From positions 1-64,000 of the forward strand of contig JAAVGM010000026.1 of the NCBI GenBank assembly GCA_014800245.1: DNA of 64,000 nucleotides. Direction: 5' to 3'. The position numbers were made by a program, and so were the translations under genes. The notes beneath the pieces are model-generated. The model was not told the DNA's origin. It made no database searches and saw nothing but the letters and a program-made list of their open reading frames with translations. Below are positions 8,357 through 16,396 of the stretch, one piece after another. The stretch's first letter is position 1. Each line of letters opens with the position of its first letter. The DNA comes from Bacteroidales bacterium. GTDB lineage: Bacteria > Bacteroidota > Bacteroidia > Bacteroidales > Muribaculaceae.

Positions 8357-9238
8357 TTATAGTTTCATCCGATCGATAAGGGTTTGGTCAGCTCCGTATT
8401 CCTTCGCTAATTTCAAAGCGATTTCAGCTTCTTCATTCTGATAATTCAGACGATGAAGATAAGCTCGAAGGAGATACAGATTCCCGTTTCTTGGAAATGC
8501 TTTCATTGCCTCCCTAAGTGTTTCCGATGCTTCCGGCAAACGTCCATTGTCAGCTAAAAGTGTAACTTTATAAAAATAAATTGTCTCATCAGGCATTATT
8601 TTCAATGATTCAGAATAAAGGGTGATAGCTTTATCTATTTCCCCATTTTGAATGGCAATTGAGGCCAAGCCATTATATCCCTGTGTATTTTCCGGATGGT
8701 TTTTTTTAAGATATTCGAAATCCTTTTCGGCGTCTGTTGTATTCTTCAGCTCCATCAGGACCATCCCCCTTATCATTCGAGGCCATTCGAGGGTTGAGTC
8801 ATTTTTAAGGAGAAGATCAAGATCGGTTAAGGCATCATCCATTTTTTTTTCACTGATAAGCAGGGCAGCTCTCCCGGATAGCATATTTATTGAATTAGGT
8901 TGAAGCGACAATCCAATATTATATGCTTCTAATGCCCCTTCTGAATCATCAAGATTCTGTCTTATTTCTGCCAGATTTGCCCAAAGAAGCCAGTTTGATT
9001 TATTTGCAGGTTTCAATCGGAGCGCACTGATGGTGGTTCGTTCAGCATCTTTCCAATTCTTAATTGAAGAATAATATTCGGCGGAATCCACCAAGACCTC
9101 AAATGCTTTTTCTGAGTCAATGGCAAAATCTCTTCCGTTTAAGTTCTGAGATTGCGCCACAGACACAAAAATAATTAGCAACAAGGGGCAAATTACTTTG
9201 CCCCTTGTCATAAAAGATATATTAAAAATCTGTTTCAT
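8357..9238 (-). CDS. secreted/periplasmic TPR protein
   Basis: 293 residues with a signal peptide (hydrophobic core CPLLLIIFVSVAQS, cleavage near residue 30) and about seven tetratricopeptide repeats from residue 40 to the end, e.g. NWLLWANLAEIRQNL and AYNIGLSLQPNSINM. TPR proteins are scaffolds; no enzymatic motif is seen. The ATG directly abuts the stop codon of dsbD (0-base gap), so the two are translated from one message. A role in periplasmic redox or protein assembly is inference from that linkage. Confidence 0.85.
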   Translation of the reverse strand: MKQIFNISFMTRGKVICPLLLIIFVSVAQSQNLNGRDFAIDSEKAFEVLVDSAEYYSSIKNWKDAERTTISALRLKPANKSNWLLWANLAEIRQNLDDSEGALEAYNIGLSLQPNSINMLSGRAALLISEKKMDDALTDLDLLLKNDSTLEWPRMIRGMVLMELKNTTDAEKDFEYLKKNHPENTQGYNGLASIAIQNGEIDKAITLYSESLKIMPDETIYFYKVTLLADNGRLPEASETLREAMKAFPRNGNLYLLRAYLHRLNYQNEEAEIALKLAKEYGADQTLIDRMKL

Positions 9239-11287
9239 TTATTTCTTCTGCGAGTTGTAACGAGAGATACCTGAGCGGAGGAACTGCAAATATTTCGGAA
9301 CGTTCTCATCATATCCGTAAGGTTGAGCAAGAGGTTTGCCGTTGTTGTCAACCAATACATAATATGGCTGGGCATTTGCACCAAATTTAGAACGTTCGAG
9401 ATAGCTCCATTTATCTCCATATGTGCGGAGGGTGCGCTCAGTGCCATCCGATTCCTTCACCTCAATGGGCTCGGGCAGAGGCTTCTTATCATCCACCATA
9501 AGGGTGATTAGCACATAGTCGTTTTCAATGATTGATTTCACTTCAGGATTAGTCCATACAGCAGCCTCCATCTTTCGGCAGTTGACGCAACCAAACCCGG
9601 AGAAGTCGATCATAACCGGTTTATTAAGTTCTTGCGCCATTCTCATACCCTCTTCATAGTCGGAAGATGTGGCATGTACGCTTCCTTCATAGAGGTTGAA
9701 ATCCTGAGTGGAAACCGGAGGAGCGAATGCGCTTATGCTCTTAAGGGGCGCACCCCAAAGACCGGGGAGCATATACACTGCAAATGCGAGCGAGATACAT
9801 GCGAGCATAAAGCGAGGCACACTTACTTTTTCCACTTTGGAATCATGAGGGAAGGTGATCTTTCCGAGGAGATAGATGCCAAGGAGCGCGAATATAACAA
9901 TCCAAAGAGAAACGAACACCTCTCTATCAAGTATTCTCCATCCGTAAGCAAGGTCGGCAACAGAGAGGAACTTTAAAGCGAGAGCCAACTCCAGGAAGCC
10001 AAGTACAACCTTGACAGTATTCATCCAGCCACCGCTCTTTGGCACTGACTTAAGAATAGTCGGGAAGATGGCGAAGAGTGTGAAAGGAAGGGCAAGAGCA
10101 AGCGAGAATCCAAACATTCCTATGGCAGGAGAGATGAAATTGGATGTTGCAGCTGCCTCTACAAGCAGGGTTCCGATGATCGGACCTGTGCAAGAGAAGG
10201 ATACGAGGGCAAGCGTGAATGCCATAAAGAAGATGCTGAGATATCCGGTGGTGGAGTCAACCTTTGAATCCATCTTATTGCTCCATGATGCAGGGAGAGT
10301 GATTTCAAATCCACCCATGAACGAAATTGCAAAGAGAACAAGAAGAAGGAAGAAGGCAATGTTGAAGCCGGCCGAAGTAGCAAGTTCGTTGAGAGCGGAT
10401 GCTCCGAAGATTGCAGTGACAATAAGACCGAGCAAAACGTATATCACTATGATAGATGCTCCATAAGTCACAGCCGCCATGATTGATTTGCGTCGTGTCT
10501 TATTCTGTTTCAAGAAGAAACTTACTGTCATCGGAATCATAGGCCAGACACAGGGAGTGACCAATGCAATGAGACCTCCCAAGAAACCGGCGATGAATAT
10601 ATACCATAGAGAGCGGCCTTGCTGAGAAGGATCGTCCTTGAAAACCTTGAATTCAGCCTCAACATTATCCCACCATCCTGATGTGTCGGCATTAGAGAGG
10701 TTGACACCCGGCACCAATGGAGCGTTAGCAGATTGAAGAGAATCTATCATCTCTGCCACTCCCTCAGCTTGGGAAGCGTCCGACTCATCAGCCTTAGTTT
10801 CCTCTTTCAATCCTTCTTTAGCCTCCTCTTCCTTTTTATCATTGGCTAAAGGAGACTTTCCTTCGAATTTGTGAGAGCCGAAAACCTGAAAACAACTTCC
10901 ATCATTGCAAACCTGTCCTGTGATCTCAACTTTAGCTGTGTAGGTGGGGGCAGTTGCCTTCAATTTCTGGGTAAATTTGACTGTCCCGGTCCAATAGTGT
11001 TCCTCTACTCCGAAAATATCATTGAATTCCTTGGAATACGCCTTGTCGGGGGTAGGTTTGCCCACAAGGGAGCACCCCTTAAGGTCGAAGGTCATGACGA
11101 GAGGGTTCGAACCCATTTCGGGGTTATCGAAAGCGTAGAGATGAAAACCGCGTTCAATTTTTGCAGTAATCTCTAACGAAGGATCAGCGGTATTGTCTCC
11201 TATGAGTTTATACGACCAATCCACATTGCCCGCTTTACAAACAAGCGTCAGCATCAATACCGTGAAGATTGAAAGAAATTTCTTCAT
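9239..11287 (-). CDS. dsbD: thiol:disulfide interchange protein DsbD
   Basis: 682 residues. Signal peptide at 1-19; N-terminal DsbD-alpha-like immunoglobulin domain (about 22-145) with two cysteines in GQVCNDGSCFQVFG; an acidic linker (about 145-175); an eight-helix DsbD-beta/CcdA membrane domain (about 225-480) with paired redox cysteines in VTPCVWPM and FSCTGPII; and a C-terminal thioredoxin domain with GCVNCRKM. It moves electrons from cytoplasmic thioredoxin to periplasmic disulfide reductases. All redox cysteines are present and length is as expected for Bacteroidetes DsbD. A promoter lies at 11330-11361, overlapping the divergent ior promoter; downstream partner is the TPR gene. Confidence 0.95.
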   Translation of the reverse strand: MKKFLSIFTVLMLTLVCKAGNVDWSYKLIGDNTADPSLEITAKIERGFHLYAFDNPEMGSNPLVMTFDLKGCSLVGKPTPDKAYSKEFNDIFGVEEHYWTGTVKFTQKLKATAPTYTAKVEITGQVCNDGSCFQVFGSHKFEGKSPLANDKKEEEAKEGLKEETKADESDASQAEGVAEMIDSLQSANAPLVPGVNLSNADTSGWWDNVEAEFKVFKDDPSQQGRSLWYIFIAGFLGGLIALVTPCVWPMIPMTVSFFLKQNKTRRKSIMAAVTYGASIIVIYVLLGLIVTAIFGASALNELATSAGFNIAFFLLLVLFAISFMGGFEITLPASWSNKMDSKVDSTTGYLSIFFMAFTLALVSFSCTGPIIGTLLVEAAATSNFISPAIGMFGFSLALALPFTLFAIFPTILKSVPKSGGWMNTVKVVLGFLELALALKFLSVADLAYGWRILDREVFVSLWIVIFALLGIYLLGKITFPHDSKVEKVSVPRFMLACISLAFAVYMLPGLWGAPLKSISAFAPPVSTQDFNLYEGSVHATSSDYEEGMRMAQELNKPVMIDFSGFGCVNCRKMEAAVWTNPEVKSIIENDYVLITLMVDDKKPLPEPIEVKESDGTERTLRTYGDKWSYLERSKFGANAQPYYVLVDNNGKPLAQPYGYDENVPKYLQFLRSGISRYNSQKK

Positions 11288-11325
11288 AGATGTATGGTTG
11301 ATTAATATGGTTGTTTTTATTTTTA

Positions 11326-11357
11326 TTTGCGAATTTAATCAAATGTTGTTATATTTG
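11326..11357 (+). promoter_or_regulatory. promoter of the iorAB operon
   Basis: TTTG (11326-11329), 20-base spacer, TATATTTG (11350-11357): an exact Bacteroidetes primary-sigma promoter. Predicted start near 11363 leaves a ~165-base leader before iorA. It occupies almost the same DNA as the opposite-strand dsbD promoter. Confidence 0.8.
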
Positions 11358-11361
11358 CAAT
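11330..11361 (-). promoter_or_regulatory. promoter of dsbD, superimposed on the ior promoter
   Basis: On the minus strand ATTG (11361-11358), 20-base spacer, TAAATTCG (11337-11330), with one mismatch in each box. The two promoters share nearly every base, so one polymerase would exclude the other. Confidence 0.6.
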
Positions 11362-11406
11362 GATTAAATCTAATACTTGCAAAATTTTGTTAGATAATTT
11401 TCTTTT

Positions 11407-11527: not shown

Positions 11528-13141
11528 ATGAACACGAAAAAGTTGTTATTGGGGGATGAGGCTCTTGCTTTGGGCGCCCTTCATGCCGGTCTATCGGGAG
11601 CATATGCTTATCCCGGTACGCCTTCAACAGAGATCATGGAATTTATCCAGCAGTCGCCAATCACAAAGGAGAGGGGGATTCATTCCCATTGGTCGTCGAA
11701 TGAGAAGACGGCTGTAGAGGAAGCGCTCGGAATGTCGTATTGTGGCAAAAGAGCAATCACCTCCATGAAGCATGTTGGCTTGAATGTGGCTGCTGATCCG
11801 TTTGTAAACTCTGCAATGACAGGTGCAAATGGAGGTCTGCTCGTTATTGCAGCCGACGACCCTTCCATGCATTCCTCTCAGAATGAACAGGATTCAAGAT
11901 TTTATGCTGATTTTGCAATGATTCCGGCATTGGAGCCCTCCAATCAGCAGGAAGCATATGATATGGCAGCATATGGATTTAATCTTTCCGAACAATTCCA
12001 GATTCCGGTGATGGTTCGCTTGGTGACTCGTCTCAGTCATAGCCGTGCCGTGGTTGAAACGTCGGAAGAAGTGAAAGAGGAGAATGTGCTTCACTATCCT
12101 GAACGTCCCAAACAGTGGGTGCTTATGCCGGCTATGTCGAAGATCCGTAACAAACAGCTCATCGCAGATTTTGATGATCTTCAGATCGTATCCGACAAAT
12201 CTCCTTTCAATCGCTACGAAGAGGGTAAGGACACTCGTATCGGTATTGTGGTTAGCGGCATTGCCTATAACTATCTTCAGGAGGCATTCCCGAAGGGGGT
12301 TCCGTTCCCTGTGGTGAAGGTGAGCCAGTATCCTTTGCCCAAGAAGCTCATCAGTCGCCTTTATAATGAATGCGATTCGCTTCTCGTAATAGAGGAAGGA
12401 CAGCCATTTATTGAAAAGCAACTTCGCGGACTCCTTGATGCCGGCAAGCCTGTGATGGGTAAGTTCACCGGAGAATTGAATCGCGACGGCGAGCTTAATC
12501 CCGATATTATAAGGAATCTCTTCATGTCGATTGCTCCCGAATATATGGAGCTCGAATCAATGAAGCGTAATATTCCGGCAAAGAATGTGGTTTCTCGTCC
12601 GCCCGCATTGTGTCAGGGTTGCGGTCATAGAGATGTCTATGGCGCTCTCAATGAAGTGCTGGAAGGATATGAGAATGCAAAAGTGTTTGGCGATATAGGC
12701 TGCTACACGCTTGGATTCCTTAGTCCGTTCAATTCAATTGACACTTGCGTTGACATGGGTGCATCAATCACAATGGCAAAGGGTGCGGCAGATGCAGGTC
12801 AGCATCCGGCTGTGGCAATAATCGGAGATTCTACATTCACTCATAGCGGTATGACCGGTCTGCTTGATGCCATCAACGAGAACTCACCGATCACTGTGAT
12901 TATCTCAGACAATCTCACCACAGGTATGACTGGAGGTCAGGATTCCCAGGGAACAGGCAAGATTGAGGAAATATGTCTTGGCCTTGGAGCTGCTCCCGAA
13001 CATGTCCGCACAATCGATTCCCTCCCGAAGAATCATGATGAGATGGTCAAGCTCTTCAAAGAGGAGATCGATTATCCCGGCTTGTCGGTAATAGTGTCGA
13101 GAAGAGAGTGTATCCAGACAGCTCGAAGAAAGAAAAGCTGA
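11528..13141 (+). CDS. iorA: indolepyruvate:ferredoxin oxidoreductase, alpha subunit (no ferredoxin domain)
   Basis: 537 residues. N-terminal pyruvate:ferredoxin-oxidoreductase domain (about 8-190, AYPGTPSTEI), a central transketolase-C-like region (about 235-340) and a C-terminal thiamine-diphosphate domain with CQGCGHRD (362-369), GDIGCYTLG and the GDS(T)...DN motif (433-462). The enzyme decarboxylates aryl-pyruvates (indolepyruvate, phenylpyruvate) to aryl-acetyl-CoA using CoA and reduces ferredoxin. Archaeal IorA continues into a C-terminal 2x[4Fe-4S] domain; this one ends at SRRECIQTARRKKS, as in Bacteroides homologues, so electrons must leave by a separate carrier. First gene of a four-gene operon; iorB begins 26 bases later. 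Confidence 0.95.
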   Translation: MNTKKLLLGDEALALGALHAGLSGAYAYPGTPSTEIMEFIQQSPITKERGIHSHWSSNEKTAVEEALGMSYCGKRAITSMKHVGLNVAADPFVNSAMTGANGGLLVIAADDPSMHSSQNEQDSRFYADFAMIPALEPSNQQEAYDMAAYGFNLSEQFQIPVMVRLVTRLSHSRAVVETSEEVKEENVLHYPERPKQWVLMPAMSKIRNKQLIADFDDLQIVSDKSPFNRYEEGKDTRIGIVVSGIAYNYLQEAFPKGVPFPVVKVSQYPLPKKLISRLYNECDSLLVIEEGQPFIEKQLRGLLDAGKPVMGKFTGELNRDGELNPDIIRNLFMSIAPEYMELESMKRNIPAKNVVSRPPALCQGCGHRDVYGALNEVLEGYENAKVFGDIGCYTLGFLSPFNSIDTCVDMGASITMAKGAADAGQHPAVAIIGDSTFTHSGMTGLLDAINENSPITVIISDNLTTGMTGGQDSQGTGKIEEICLGLGAAPEHVRTIDSLPKNHDEMVKLFKEEIDYPGLSVIVSRRECIQTARRKKS

Positions 13142-13166: not shown

Positions 13167-13748
13167 ATGAAGACAGATATCATCCTGGCCGGAGTAGGAG
13201 GTCAGGGCATCCTTTCAATAGCTACAATTTTGGGGGCGGCTGCTCTCGAAGAGAATCTTTATTTGAAGCAGGCAGAAGTGCATGGCATGAGCCAGCGTGG
13301 TGGAGACGTCCAATCTAACTTGCGTATAAGCTCTGAGCCGATTCACTCGGATCTTATCCCTTTAGGTGGGGCTGACCTTATTGTGTCGCTCGAACCAATG
13401 GAGGCTTTGAGATATGTAGAGTATCTTGCTCCGGAAGGGTGGGTTGTGACAAATACCAATCCTTTCGTGAATATCCCGAATTATCCTGAAATGGAGGCAG
13501 TGGAGGGCGAACTTAATGCGCTTCCGCATGTAGTGGCTTTCAATATGGATGAAAAGGCTAAGGAACTTCTTTCCCCAAGAAGCTCTAACATGATTCTTCT
13601 TGGAGCGGCGTCTCCTTTCATACAAATCGCCCCTGAGAAGATTGAGGATGCTATTCGCAAAGTGTTCGGGAGAAAAGGGGAGAAGATTGTAGAGTCAAAT
13701 GTTAAAGCGTTCCATGCCGGGCGTGAAATAGCAATGAAAAAATCCTGA
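13167..13748 (+). CDS. iorB: indolepyruvate:ferredoxin oxidoreductase, beta subunit
   Basis: 193 residues, the usual size. The gamma-type POR domain is visible: AGVGGQGILSIATILG (glycine-rich CoA/oxo-acid binding), EVHGMSQRGGDVQSNLRI and GGADLIVSLEPMEALRY. It pairs with IorA to form the complete 2-oxo-acid oxidoreductase. It sits between iorA and the aminotransferase gene, 5 bases from the latter, all in one operon. Confidence 0.95.
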   Translation: MKTDIILAGVGGQGILSIATILGAAALEENLYLKQAEVHGMSQRGGDVQSNLRISSEPIHSDLIPLGGADLIVSLEPMEALRYVEYLAPEGWVVTNTNPFVNIPNYPEMEAVEGELNALPHVVAFNMDEKAKELLSPRSSNMILLGAASPFIQIAPEKIEDAIRKVFGRKGEKIVESNVKAFHAGREIAMKKS

Positions 13749-13753
13749 CAGCA

Positions 13754-15064
13754 ATGTTTCCACTAAATAATGATACCTTGAACGACGCAATCAAGCGTCG
13801 TTCAATCATCGATATCACTTCTGCCACAATACGCCAGGTGTGCGCATTAGCAGCCGATCTTGAGAATGAAGCGGATGAAAAGATGGTTCATCTTGAGATG
13901 GGAAATCCGGGGTTGCCGGCAGAGAACGTTGGATTAGAGGCAGAAATAGCTGCATTGCAGAATGGAGTTGCTAATATATATCCCAATATCGCCGGTATTC
14001 CGGAATTGAAAACCTGGGGTTCCCGTTTTATCAAGGCATTCCTTGATATAGAGATTCCTGCAAAGGATATAATACCGACAGTGGGCTCAATGCAGGGAAG
14101 CTTCACAATGATGCTCCTTCTAAAGCAGCGCATAGAGGGGAAAGACACGATGCTCTTTATCAATCCGGGGTTCCCTGCTCAGAGAAATCAGGCTAAACTT
14201 CTTGGTCTTAAGGAGGAAGCTTTCGATATTTATTCATATCGAGGCAAAAAGCTTGAAGAGAAACTTGAAAGCATCCTGAGCAAGGGTAATATCACGGCAA
14301 TGATATATAGCAACCCCAATAATCCCGCATGGACCAACCTTACGGAGGAGGAGCTTGAAATCATTGGCCGGATGGCCACAAAATATGATGTTATTGTTCT
14401 TGAGGATCTTGCATATTTCGGAATGGACTTCCGCAAGGATATTGGTCATCCCGGTGTGCCTCCCTTCGGCTCAACTTGTGCTCGATACACAGACAATTAC
14501 ATTCTCCTTCTTTCTGCATCCAAGATATTCAGCTATGCCGGACAAAGAATCGCACTTGTCTGCATGAGCGAAAAGGTGGCGGATCGTCATTATGAGGCTC
14601 TTGAAAAGTTTTATGAGATGCCCTCATTTGGAGATGCATATGTATTTGGAGTGCTGTATTGCGCCTCTTCCGGAACAGCTCATTCGGCTCAATACGCTCT
14701 GGCAGCTATGCTTGAAAAGGCTGTGAAAGGTGAGCTTCCTTTTGTGGATCATTGCCGTGAATATGCAAAGAAGGCGGAGAGGGCAAAGAAGAGTTTCACT
14801 GATAACGGATTTCATCTTGTTTATGAATTTGATGGAGAGGAGCCTATTTCAGATGGATTCTTCTTTACAATGGGTTATCCGGGGATGTCGGCGAAAGAGC
14901 TTCAGCTCGAACTCCTGCGTTATGGGGTAGCGTCCATCTCATTGCCCTCCACCGGAAGCGAACAGCCCGGTGTGAGAGTATGTGTATCGATGCTTAGAAG
15001 CGAAGATGATTTTGTTAAACTTGAAAGATTCCTCAAGAAGTTTAACGAAGATCATAAGAAATAA
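13754..15064 (+). CDS. PLP-dependent class I aminotransferase
   Basis: 436 residues, fold type I. Visible features: NPGLPAE near the N-terminus, YPNIAGIPELK (76-86), substrate-loop SNPNNPAWT (186-194), PLP Asp in VLEDLAYFG (214-223) and the Schiff-base Lys257 in LLSASKIFSYAGQR. Next to iorAB it most likely interconverts aromatic amino acids and the aryl-pyruvates used by IorAB; substrate is inferred from context. It resembles Bacteroidetes aminotransferases encoded with 2-oxo-acid oxidoreductases. The CoA-transferase gene follows 18 bases later. Confidence 0.9.
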   Translation: MFPLNNDTLNDAIKRRSIIDITSATIRQVCALAADLENEADEKMVHLEMGNPGLPAENVGLEAEIAALQNGVANIYPNIAGIPELKTWGSRFIKAFLDIEIPAKDIIPTVGSMQGSFTMMLLLKQRIEGKDTMLFINPGFPAQRNQAKLLGLKEEAFDIYSYRGKKLEEKLESILSKGNITAMIYSNPNNPAWTNLTEEELEIIGRMATKYDVIVLEDLAYFGMDFRKDIGHPGVPPFGSTCARYTDNYILLLSASKIFSYAGQRIALVCMSEKVADRHYEALEKFYEMPSFGDAYVFGVLYCASSGTAHSAQYALAAMLEKAVKGELPFVDHCREYAKKAERAKKSFTDNGFHLVYEFDGEEPISDGFFFTMGYPGMSAKELQLELLRYGVASISLPSTGSEQPGVRVCVSMLRSEDDFVKLERFLKKFNEDHKK

Positions 15065-15082: not shown

Positions 15083-16396
15083 ATGGAAAATAATGTAAAA
15101 TATATGACAGCCGATGAGGCAGTCCGACTGATTGAAAGCGGCGACCATATCTATATTCAAGGTTCGACTTCGATTCCTGAAATCCTTCTTGATGCTTTGG
15201 CAAAAAGAGCACTCGAACAAGGCGACCTTAAGGATATCACAGTATATTCGGCCTTTGCAGTGGCCCGCAGACCGTCACCTTTATGTCAGCCGGCCCTTAA
15301 GGATATCTTCTTTCAGGATTCGTTCTTTGTATCTAATTCTGTAAGGGAATGGATAGCGAAAGGGTATGGATCCGTGACCCCAAAGTTTCTTGGAGAGGTG
15401 CCTGAGCTTTTCCGTGACGGGACATGTCGTGTAGATGTAGCGCTTATCAACTGTTCGCTTCCTAATGAAGAAGGGGTGGTAAGCTTCGGAGTATCTGCCG
15501 ATCTCGCCACAAGCGCAGTGGAATGTGCTAATTGCGTGATTGCTCAGATTAATCCTCAGGTTCCGTTCACTCCCGGAGATGCTACCATACATCTTTCTCA
15601 ACTATCAGCCGCAGTGATGGTGGACGATCCTTTGGTAGAGGTGCCCACAGCTATCCCCACAGAAAAAGAGATAAGCATAGGCAATTATATTGCCGAACTC
15701 ATTCCTGACGGGGCCACACTCCAGATCGGAGTGGGCGGCATTCCAAATGCTGTGATTCGTGCTTTGTCAAATCATAAACATCTCGGACTTCACACAGAGG
15801 CTATGACCGATGGAGTGCTTCCTCTTCTTGAAAAGGGGATAATCGACAATTCCCTAAAGAAGGTTATGCCGGGAAAATCTGTGGCTTCTCTTGCCTTGGG
15901 CTCACGGGCTCTATATGATTATCTTGATGGGAATGATGATATTATCTTCAAAGATGTGGCTTGGACCAACAATCCATTCATCATTGCTCAGAATCCGAAG
16001 GTGATGTCAATTAATTCATGTCTTGAGATTGATCTCACGGGGCAGGTTTGTGCTGACTCAATCGGCAAGAAGATTTTTTCAGGAGTCGGAGGTCAGCATG
16101 ATTTTGTATATGGTTCGTCGAGAAGTGAAGGAGGGTTGTCTTTCCTTGCAATGCTTGCCACCACCAATAAAGGATTGAATAAGATCAAACCGGTTCTAAC
16201 AGAAGGCGCCGGAGTGGTGACCACTCGTTTCCAGACAAATTATATTGTCACAGAGTATGGCGCGGTGAATCTGAGAGGGAAGAATCTTGCGGAACGAGCA
16301 AAACTGATGATTTCCATCGCGGCACCCGAATTCAGAGAAGAACTCGAGCGAGAGGCTGCCGAGCGATATGGTCAAGCATTTTTGAGATTGCGATAA
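15083..16396 (+). CDS. acetyl-CoA hydrolase / CoA-transferase family protein
   Basis: 437 residues, two-domain class I CoA-transferase of the 4-hydroxybutyrate/acetate CoA-transferase type. Catalytic Glu239 lies in GLHTEAMTDGV; glycine-rich QIGVGGIPNAV (214-224) precedes it, and VVTTRFQTNYIVTEYG marks the C-terminal domain. As the last gene of the ior operon it could move CoA from the aryl-acetyl-CoA made by IorAB onto acetate, releasing phenylacetate or indoleacetate and conserving energy as acetyl-CoA. That role is inference; related loci that I recall in Bacteroides carry a phenylacetate-CoA ligase instead. A strong terminator follows. Confidence 0.9.
   Translation: MENNVKYMTADEAVRLIESGDHIYIQGSTSIPEILLDALAKRALEQGDLKDITVYSAFAVARRPSPLCQPALKDIFFQDSFFVSNSVREWIAKGYGSVTPKFLGEVPELFRDGTCRVDVALINCSLPNEEGVVSFGVSADLATSAVECANCVIAQINPQVPFTPGDATIHLSQLSAAVMVDDPLVEVPTAIPTEKEISIGNYIAELIPDGATLQIGVGGIPNAVIRALSNHKHLGLHTEAMTDGVLPLLEKGIIDNSLKKVMPGKSVASLALGSRALYDYLDGNDDIIFKDVAWTNNPFIIAQNPKVMSINSCLEIDLTGQVCADSIGKKIFSGVGGQHDFVYGSSRSEGGLSFLAMLATTNKGLNKIKPVLTEGAGVVTTRFQTNYIVTEYGAVNLRGKNLAERAKLMISIAAPEFREELEREAAERYGQAFLRLR

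Follow-up and report, generated by a model that had tools for sequence, protein, structure and literature searches.

The 36 bp at positions 11326-11361 of the window (the whole 64,000-nucleotide stretch analysed, from a Muribaculaceae metagenome-assembled genome) most probably form a superimposed bidirectional housekeeping promoter of the sigma-ABfr type, serving dsbD in one direction and the ior operon in the other; we put the probability of this reading at about 0.82. On the + strand the segment reads TTTG CGAATTTA ATCAAATGTTGT TATATTTG CAAT. The ior-facing promoter (+ strand, TTTG-N20-TATATTTG) matches the consensus at 4/4 and 6/6 positions with a spacer of 20 bases, and thus has the features by which a sigma-ABfr promoter is recognised (TTTG at -33, TAnnTTTG at -7 and a spacer of about 20 bases). 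The dsbD-facing promoter (- strand, ATTG-N20-TAAATTCG) also has a 20-base spacer, with one mismatch per box. The elements of the site are as follows:

11326-11329, + strand: -33 element TTTG of the ior promoter; 4/4 consensus, [TG]TTG in 8 species
11350-11357, + strand: -7 element TATATTTG of the ior promoter; 6/6 consensus, present in all 8 superimposed loci, in one with a single mismatch
11330-11337, - strand: -7 element TAAATTCG of the dsbD promoter; 5/6 consensus
11358-11361, - strand: dsbD promoter, -33 element ATTG (read as CAAT on the + strand); 3/4 consensus, with no variation of CAAT among the 8 superimposed loci
11338-11349, no strand: 12-base centre common to both spacers; pairwise identity 49% (arms 86%)
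11362-11363, + strand: predicted ior start; leader of about 165 nt
11324-11325, - strand: predicted dsbD start; leader of about 37 nt

Both starts were predicted by placing the -7 box at -12 to -5 (PMC9723704), with 5-6 bases from the box to the start as expected of a sigma-ABfr promoter, which puts the divergent starts about 38 bp apart. The -7 boxes are separated by 12 bp and each -33 element abuts the opposite -7 box, so that the site as a whole reads as an imperfect palindrome, TTTGCnAAnTTA-N12-TAnnTTTGCAAT. Re-reading the sequence bore out the coordinates, the 20-base spacers and the abutting boxes that the sequence-only reading had given for the two promoters; the two - strand mismatches did not figure in it. 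When other - strand promoters were sought in the 240-base gap between dsbD and iorA, only one weak candidate was seen, with a 22-base spacer.

The genes on either side are the following:

8357-9238, - strand: TPR protein, abutting dsbD and read in the same direction
9239-11287, - strand: dsbD-like thiol:disulfide interchange protein, the first gene leftwards (Pfam DsbD_TM 2.2e-27, Thioredoxin_7 2.5e-12)
11528-13141, + strand: iorA-like indolepyruvate/2-oxoacid oxidoreductase alpha subunit (TIGR03336 3.1e-165, below cutoff, positions 2-539/595)
13167-13748, + strand: iorB, indolepyruvate oxidoreductase subunit beta (NF005324 3.2e-93, above cutoff)
13754-15064, + strand: class I/II aminotransferase, ior operon (PF00155 1.7e-21)
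15083-16396, + strand: acetyl-CoA hydrolase/transferase-type CoA transferase, ior operon (PF13336 3.4e-56)

The iorA-like subunit is 537 aa long, and the TIGR03336 matches in relatives stop at about the same point. The amino acid catabolism encoded here had been called ferredoxin-linked, a term that is not secure because the C-terminal ferredoxin-like part of IorA appears to be missing, judging from the extent of the TIGR03336 match. The electron acceptor of the enzyme may differ from that of classical IOR.

The sigma-ABfr promoter type (TTTG at -33, TAnnTTTG at -7) has been established in Bacteroides by start mapping (PMC7366714). The pattern TTTG-N19-21-TAnnTTTG was found 9 times in the window, where 1.05 matches were expected, and 206 times in the genome, compared to 18 for a backward control pattern. 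In the surroundings of strong promoters, opposing matches at least as good as the one seen here occurred about 0.4 times per 61 promoters per offset, and the chance of finding one at a single register is therefore about 0.7%. By itself the - strand promoter is weak evidence, and on sequence grounds it is conservation in relatives that decides.

The superimposed register is kept in 8 of the 13 Muribaculaceae species that have divergent dsbD and ior genes (the locus in the window, L002, L254, L008, L010, L291, L292 and L295). Both promoters are thus conserved in seven further species, and the proposal that dsbD and the ior operon have divergent, fully superimposed promoters holds. In an anchored comparison of seven of the superimposed loci (L292, whose core is identical to that of L291, was omitted), pairwise identity of the arms was 86%, that of the 12-base centre 49% and that of the flanks 30%. 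At this register the dsbD -7 box of the seven other species has the form TAAnTTnG/TAATTTTA, while TAACTTAG, TAAATTAG and TAACTTCG are found where the register has been lost. The dsbD-side sequence, a putatively active promoter, is conserved with its spacer of 20 bases, yet it is sub-consensus in all eight superimposed species.

The five other species show several arrangements. L006 and L014 have separate dsbD and ior promoters, each with its own -33/-7 pair at 20 bases, and their dsbD -7 box is still of the form TAAnTTAG. L003 and L260 have a full-consensus - strand promoter, with a weak or absent match on the + strand, and in L028 the two promoters overlap partly, at a different offset. Directly after the ior -7 box stands CGAC in L006, CGCA in L014 and CATC in L028, with no CAAT in any of the three. 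The gene tree suggests that the superimposed state is old in the group and was later lost in L014, L006 and L003/L260, or else that it was gained twice. Most of the ior loci examined (153 rows) had no detected dsbD neighbour, and a superimposed match was present at only 2 of the approximately 137 ior loci lacking dsbD (L012 and L109; raw Fisher p = 3e-7), a number that leaves out L082, which is this genome itself, and L255, whose contig ends before dsbD.

The same layout recurs across the family. With up to 3 mismatches allowed, TTTGCAAAnnTA-N12-TAnnTTTGCAAA had 23 matches in this genome, against none for the backward control. Searching 198 family genomes with TTGCAAAnnTA-N(0-30)-TAnnTTTGCAA gave 75 sites among the matches listed, and the distribution of gaps among them had a sharp peak at 12 (29/75), followed by 11 (7), 13 (4) and 14 (2); the count at 11 is inflated by near-identical copies such as L207/L237. 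Two promoters with 20-base spacers superimpose when the gap is 12. Further groups among these 75 listed matches lay at gaps of 21-24 (21 sites) and 2-5 (10 sites), and no site in the 198 genomes fell at gaps of 9-10, 15-20 or 25-30 among the same matches. Order-wide, in 247 genomes, gaps of 11-13 accounted for 29 of the 71 sites outside this genome, again among the matches listed. The gap-12 peak was absent from a convergent-orientation control, which had only a gap-6 group made up largely of near-identical copies.

Sites with gaps of 11-14 are concentrated between divergent genes, with 25 of the 37 intergenic cases in such regions, compared to a 25% share of intergenic bases (p = 9e-8, or p = 4e-4 when ten alaS/M23 orthologues are counted once). 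These contexts come from crude ORF rules and were reclassified after a first pass that had given 19 divergent, 6 tandem and 1 convergent site, with 13 "inside" over-extended ORFs; of the gap 11-14 sites selected by pattern, about one third lie elsewhere than between divergent genes. A divergent pair of alaS and an M23 peptidase gene carries superimposed gap-12 promoters in ten genus members (L216, L218, L221, L225, L228, L229, L230, L232, L233 and L235), and a ribonucleotide-reductase-like/nitroreductase-like pair shows the same layout; the genes in both pairs were named by eye.

Two other kinds of site were seen in these searches. At gaps of 21-24, TAnnTTTGCAA boxes stand back to back (L184-L253; for example L245 at G000:C24:17301, L199 and L184), and of the 15 that have a neighbour on both sides, 11 lie between divergent genes; several are close to contig ends, and inspection by eye showed no TTTG where the -33 element would be expected. 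In L207 and L237 (G045:C62), near-identical palindromes (TTGCAAATTTACGAT..ATCGTAAATTTGCAA) flank a 1176-base ORF and may mark the two ends of a mobile element.

In a test that was not selected by pattern, 1.6 Mb was sampled from three genomes (G000, G030 and G189). Opposing promoters at the exact register occurred 5 times in divergent regions, against 0.72 expected (p = 9e-4), a modest excess that includes one palindrome twice, once per strand. Tandem regions of the same 1.6 Mb showed no excess at the exact register (1/135 strong promoters). The idea that such symmetry is built into every promoter was rejected, as tandem regions gave an opposing promoter at the register in only 1/64 and 1/135 cases. 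Opposing promoter-like matches in the 1.6 Mb sample were also raised at offsets of -39/-40, in divergent and tandem regions alike.

We considered whether an AT-rich spacer and a downstream CAAT might simply happen to resemble a - strand promoter. The mismatch in each - strand box, the AT-rich region and a single-site probability of about 0.7% at the superimposed register leave some room for this. However, the same register recurs in seven further species despite their diverged centre and flanks, and is nearly absent at ior loci without dsbD; because both promoters are conserved in those species, coincidence is untenable as an explanation and we regard it as very improbable. Alternatively, the palindrome could be an operator for a dimeric regulator, with only the + strand promoter real and the - strand boxes a by-product of the binding site. 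An imperfect inverted repeat would suit such a protein, and so might the spacing of the gaps, which group around 4, 12 and 23, at intervals of roughly one helical turn that regulator half-sites could show. However, the half-sites are exactly the -7 consensus, a gap of 12 gives 20-base spacers on both strands, the sites favour divergent genes, and many unrelated genes carry the layout. Furthermore, in L014 and L006 the separated arms each have their own -33 element at 20 bases. An operator thus seems improbable to us, less so than coincidence.

The sequence-only reading had gone further, proposing that polymerase on one promoter blocks the other and that the pair is a built-in redox switch. With a dedicated switch of this kind, the occupied promoter would shut the other and the cell would move back and forth between dsbD-based thiol reduction in the envelope and catabolism of 2-oxoacids through ior. 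Exclusive binding is what the geometry leads us to expect, whereas the dedicated switch found no support. In its favour are the complete overlap, which would make binding mutually exclusive, the conservation of the register in eight species, and the finding in E. coli that one direction, once activated, can repress the other via polymerase competition (PMC12825309). Against it, gene pairs with no functional relation share this layout, among them alaS with the M23 peptidase gene in 10 genomes and the ribonucleotide-reductase-like/nitroreductase-like pair; the dsbD/ior pairing is itself uncommon; 5 of the 13 species with the pair lack the register; and bidirectional promoters of E. coli showed no competition at basal activity (PMC12825309). 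We therefore consider a dedicated switch unlikely, though it is the least unlikely of these three alternatives.

With the bidirectional housekeeping promoter as the preferred reading, one holoenzyme would bind the site in either orientation, and never two at once. The footprint of RNA polymerase is too large for two polymerases at one such site, and this footprint together with the site geometry would make binding mutually exclusive. The ior side, being consensus, is presumably the stronger and the dsbD side the weaker. At low occupancy the two directions would be largely independent; with one direction strongly active, interference would be expected, mainly of ior against dsbD, because only the ior side is a full consensus match.

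Bidirectional promoters have been described in E. coli and Salmonella (Warman et al. 2021/2026), where near-symmetric DNA gives rise to divergent RNAs (PMC12825309, PMC10268837). In that class the starts are 7-25 bp apart, mostly 18, and the -10 elements reciprocally overlap (PMC10268837). Five such promoters in E. coli showed no competition at basal activity, which was too low, and repression once one direction was activated (PMC12825309). The present site resembles this class in that one polymerase would be able to bind either way, binding would be exclusive, and the site lies between divergent genes. It differs in that 12 bp separate the -7 boxes, with each -33 element directly adjoining the opposite -7 box. 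Of the criteria used by Warman et al., the opposed promoters share DNA in such a way that two polymerases would be unable to bind together, whereas the predicted starts, about 38 bp apart, fall outside the 7-25 bp range that goes with overlapping -10 elements. The site would work as the published bidirectional promoters do, with a longer geometry. Both halves are like the sigma-ABfr promoters of the Bacteroidota, including the AT-rich 20-base spacer, although those have been described as single promoters (PMC7366714) and here they are paired and superimposed. The open-access literature searched contained no description of paired superimposed sigma-ABfr promoters and nothing relevant on bidirectional promoters in Bacteroides.

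The balance tips slightly towards the Bacteroidales having a bidirectional promoter class of their own, with interlocked -33/-7 elements (TTGCAAAnnTA-N12-TAnnTTTGCAA) and starts about 38 bp apart, used by many divergent gene pairs, with the register under selection and polymerase competition coupling neighbouring operons. Were this to be confirmed, distances between divergent starts in the dRNA-seq maps that exist for Bacteroides should peak at about 38 bp, and in a major gut phylum it would become possible to test whether adjacent operons compete for polymerase. Compared to the E. coli and Salmonella promoters, the -33/-7 system of the Bacteroidota seems to reach the same end by a geometry outside the published distance window.
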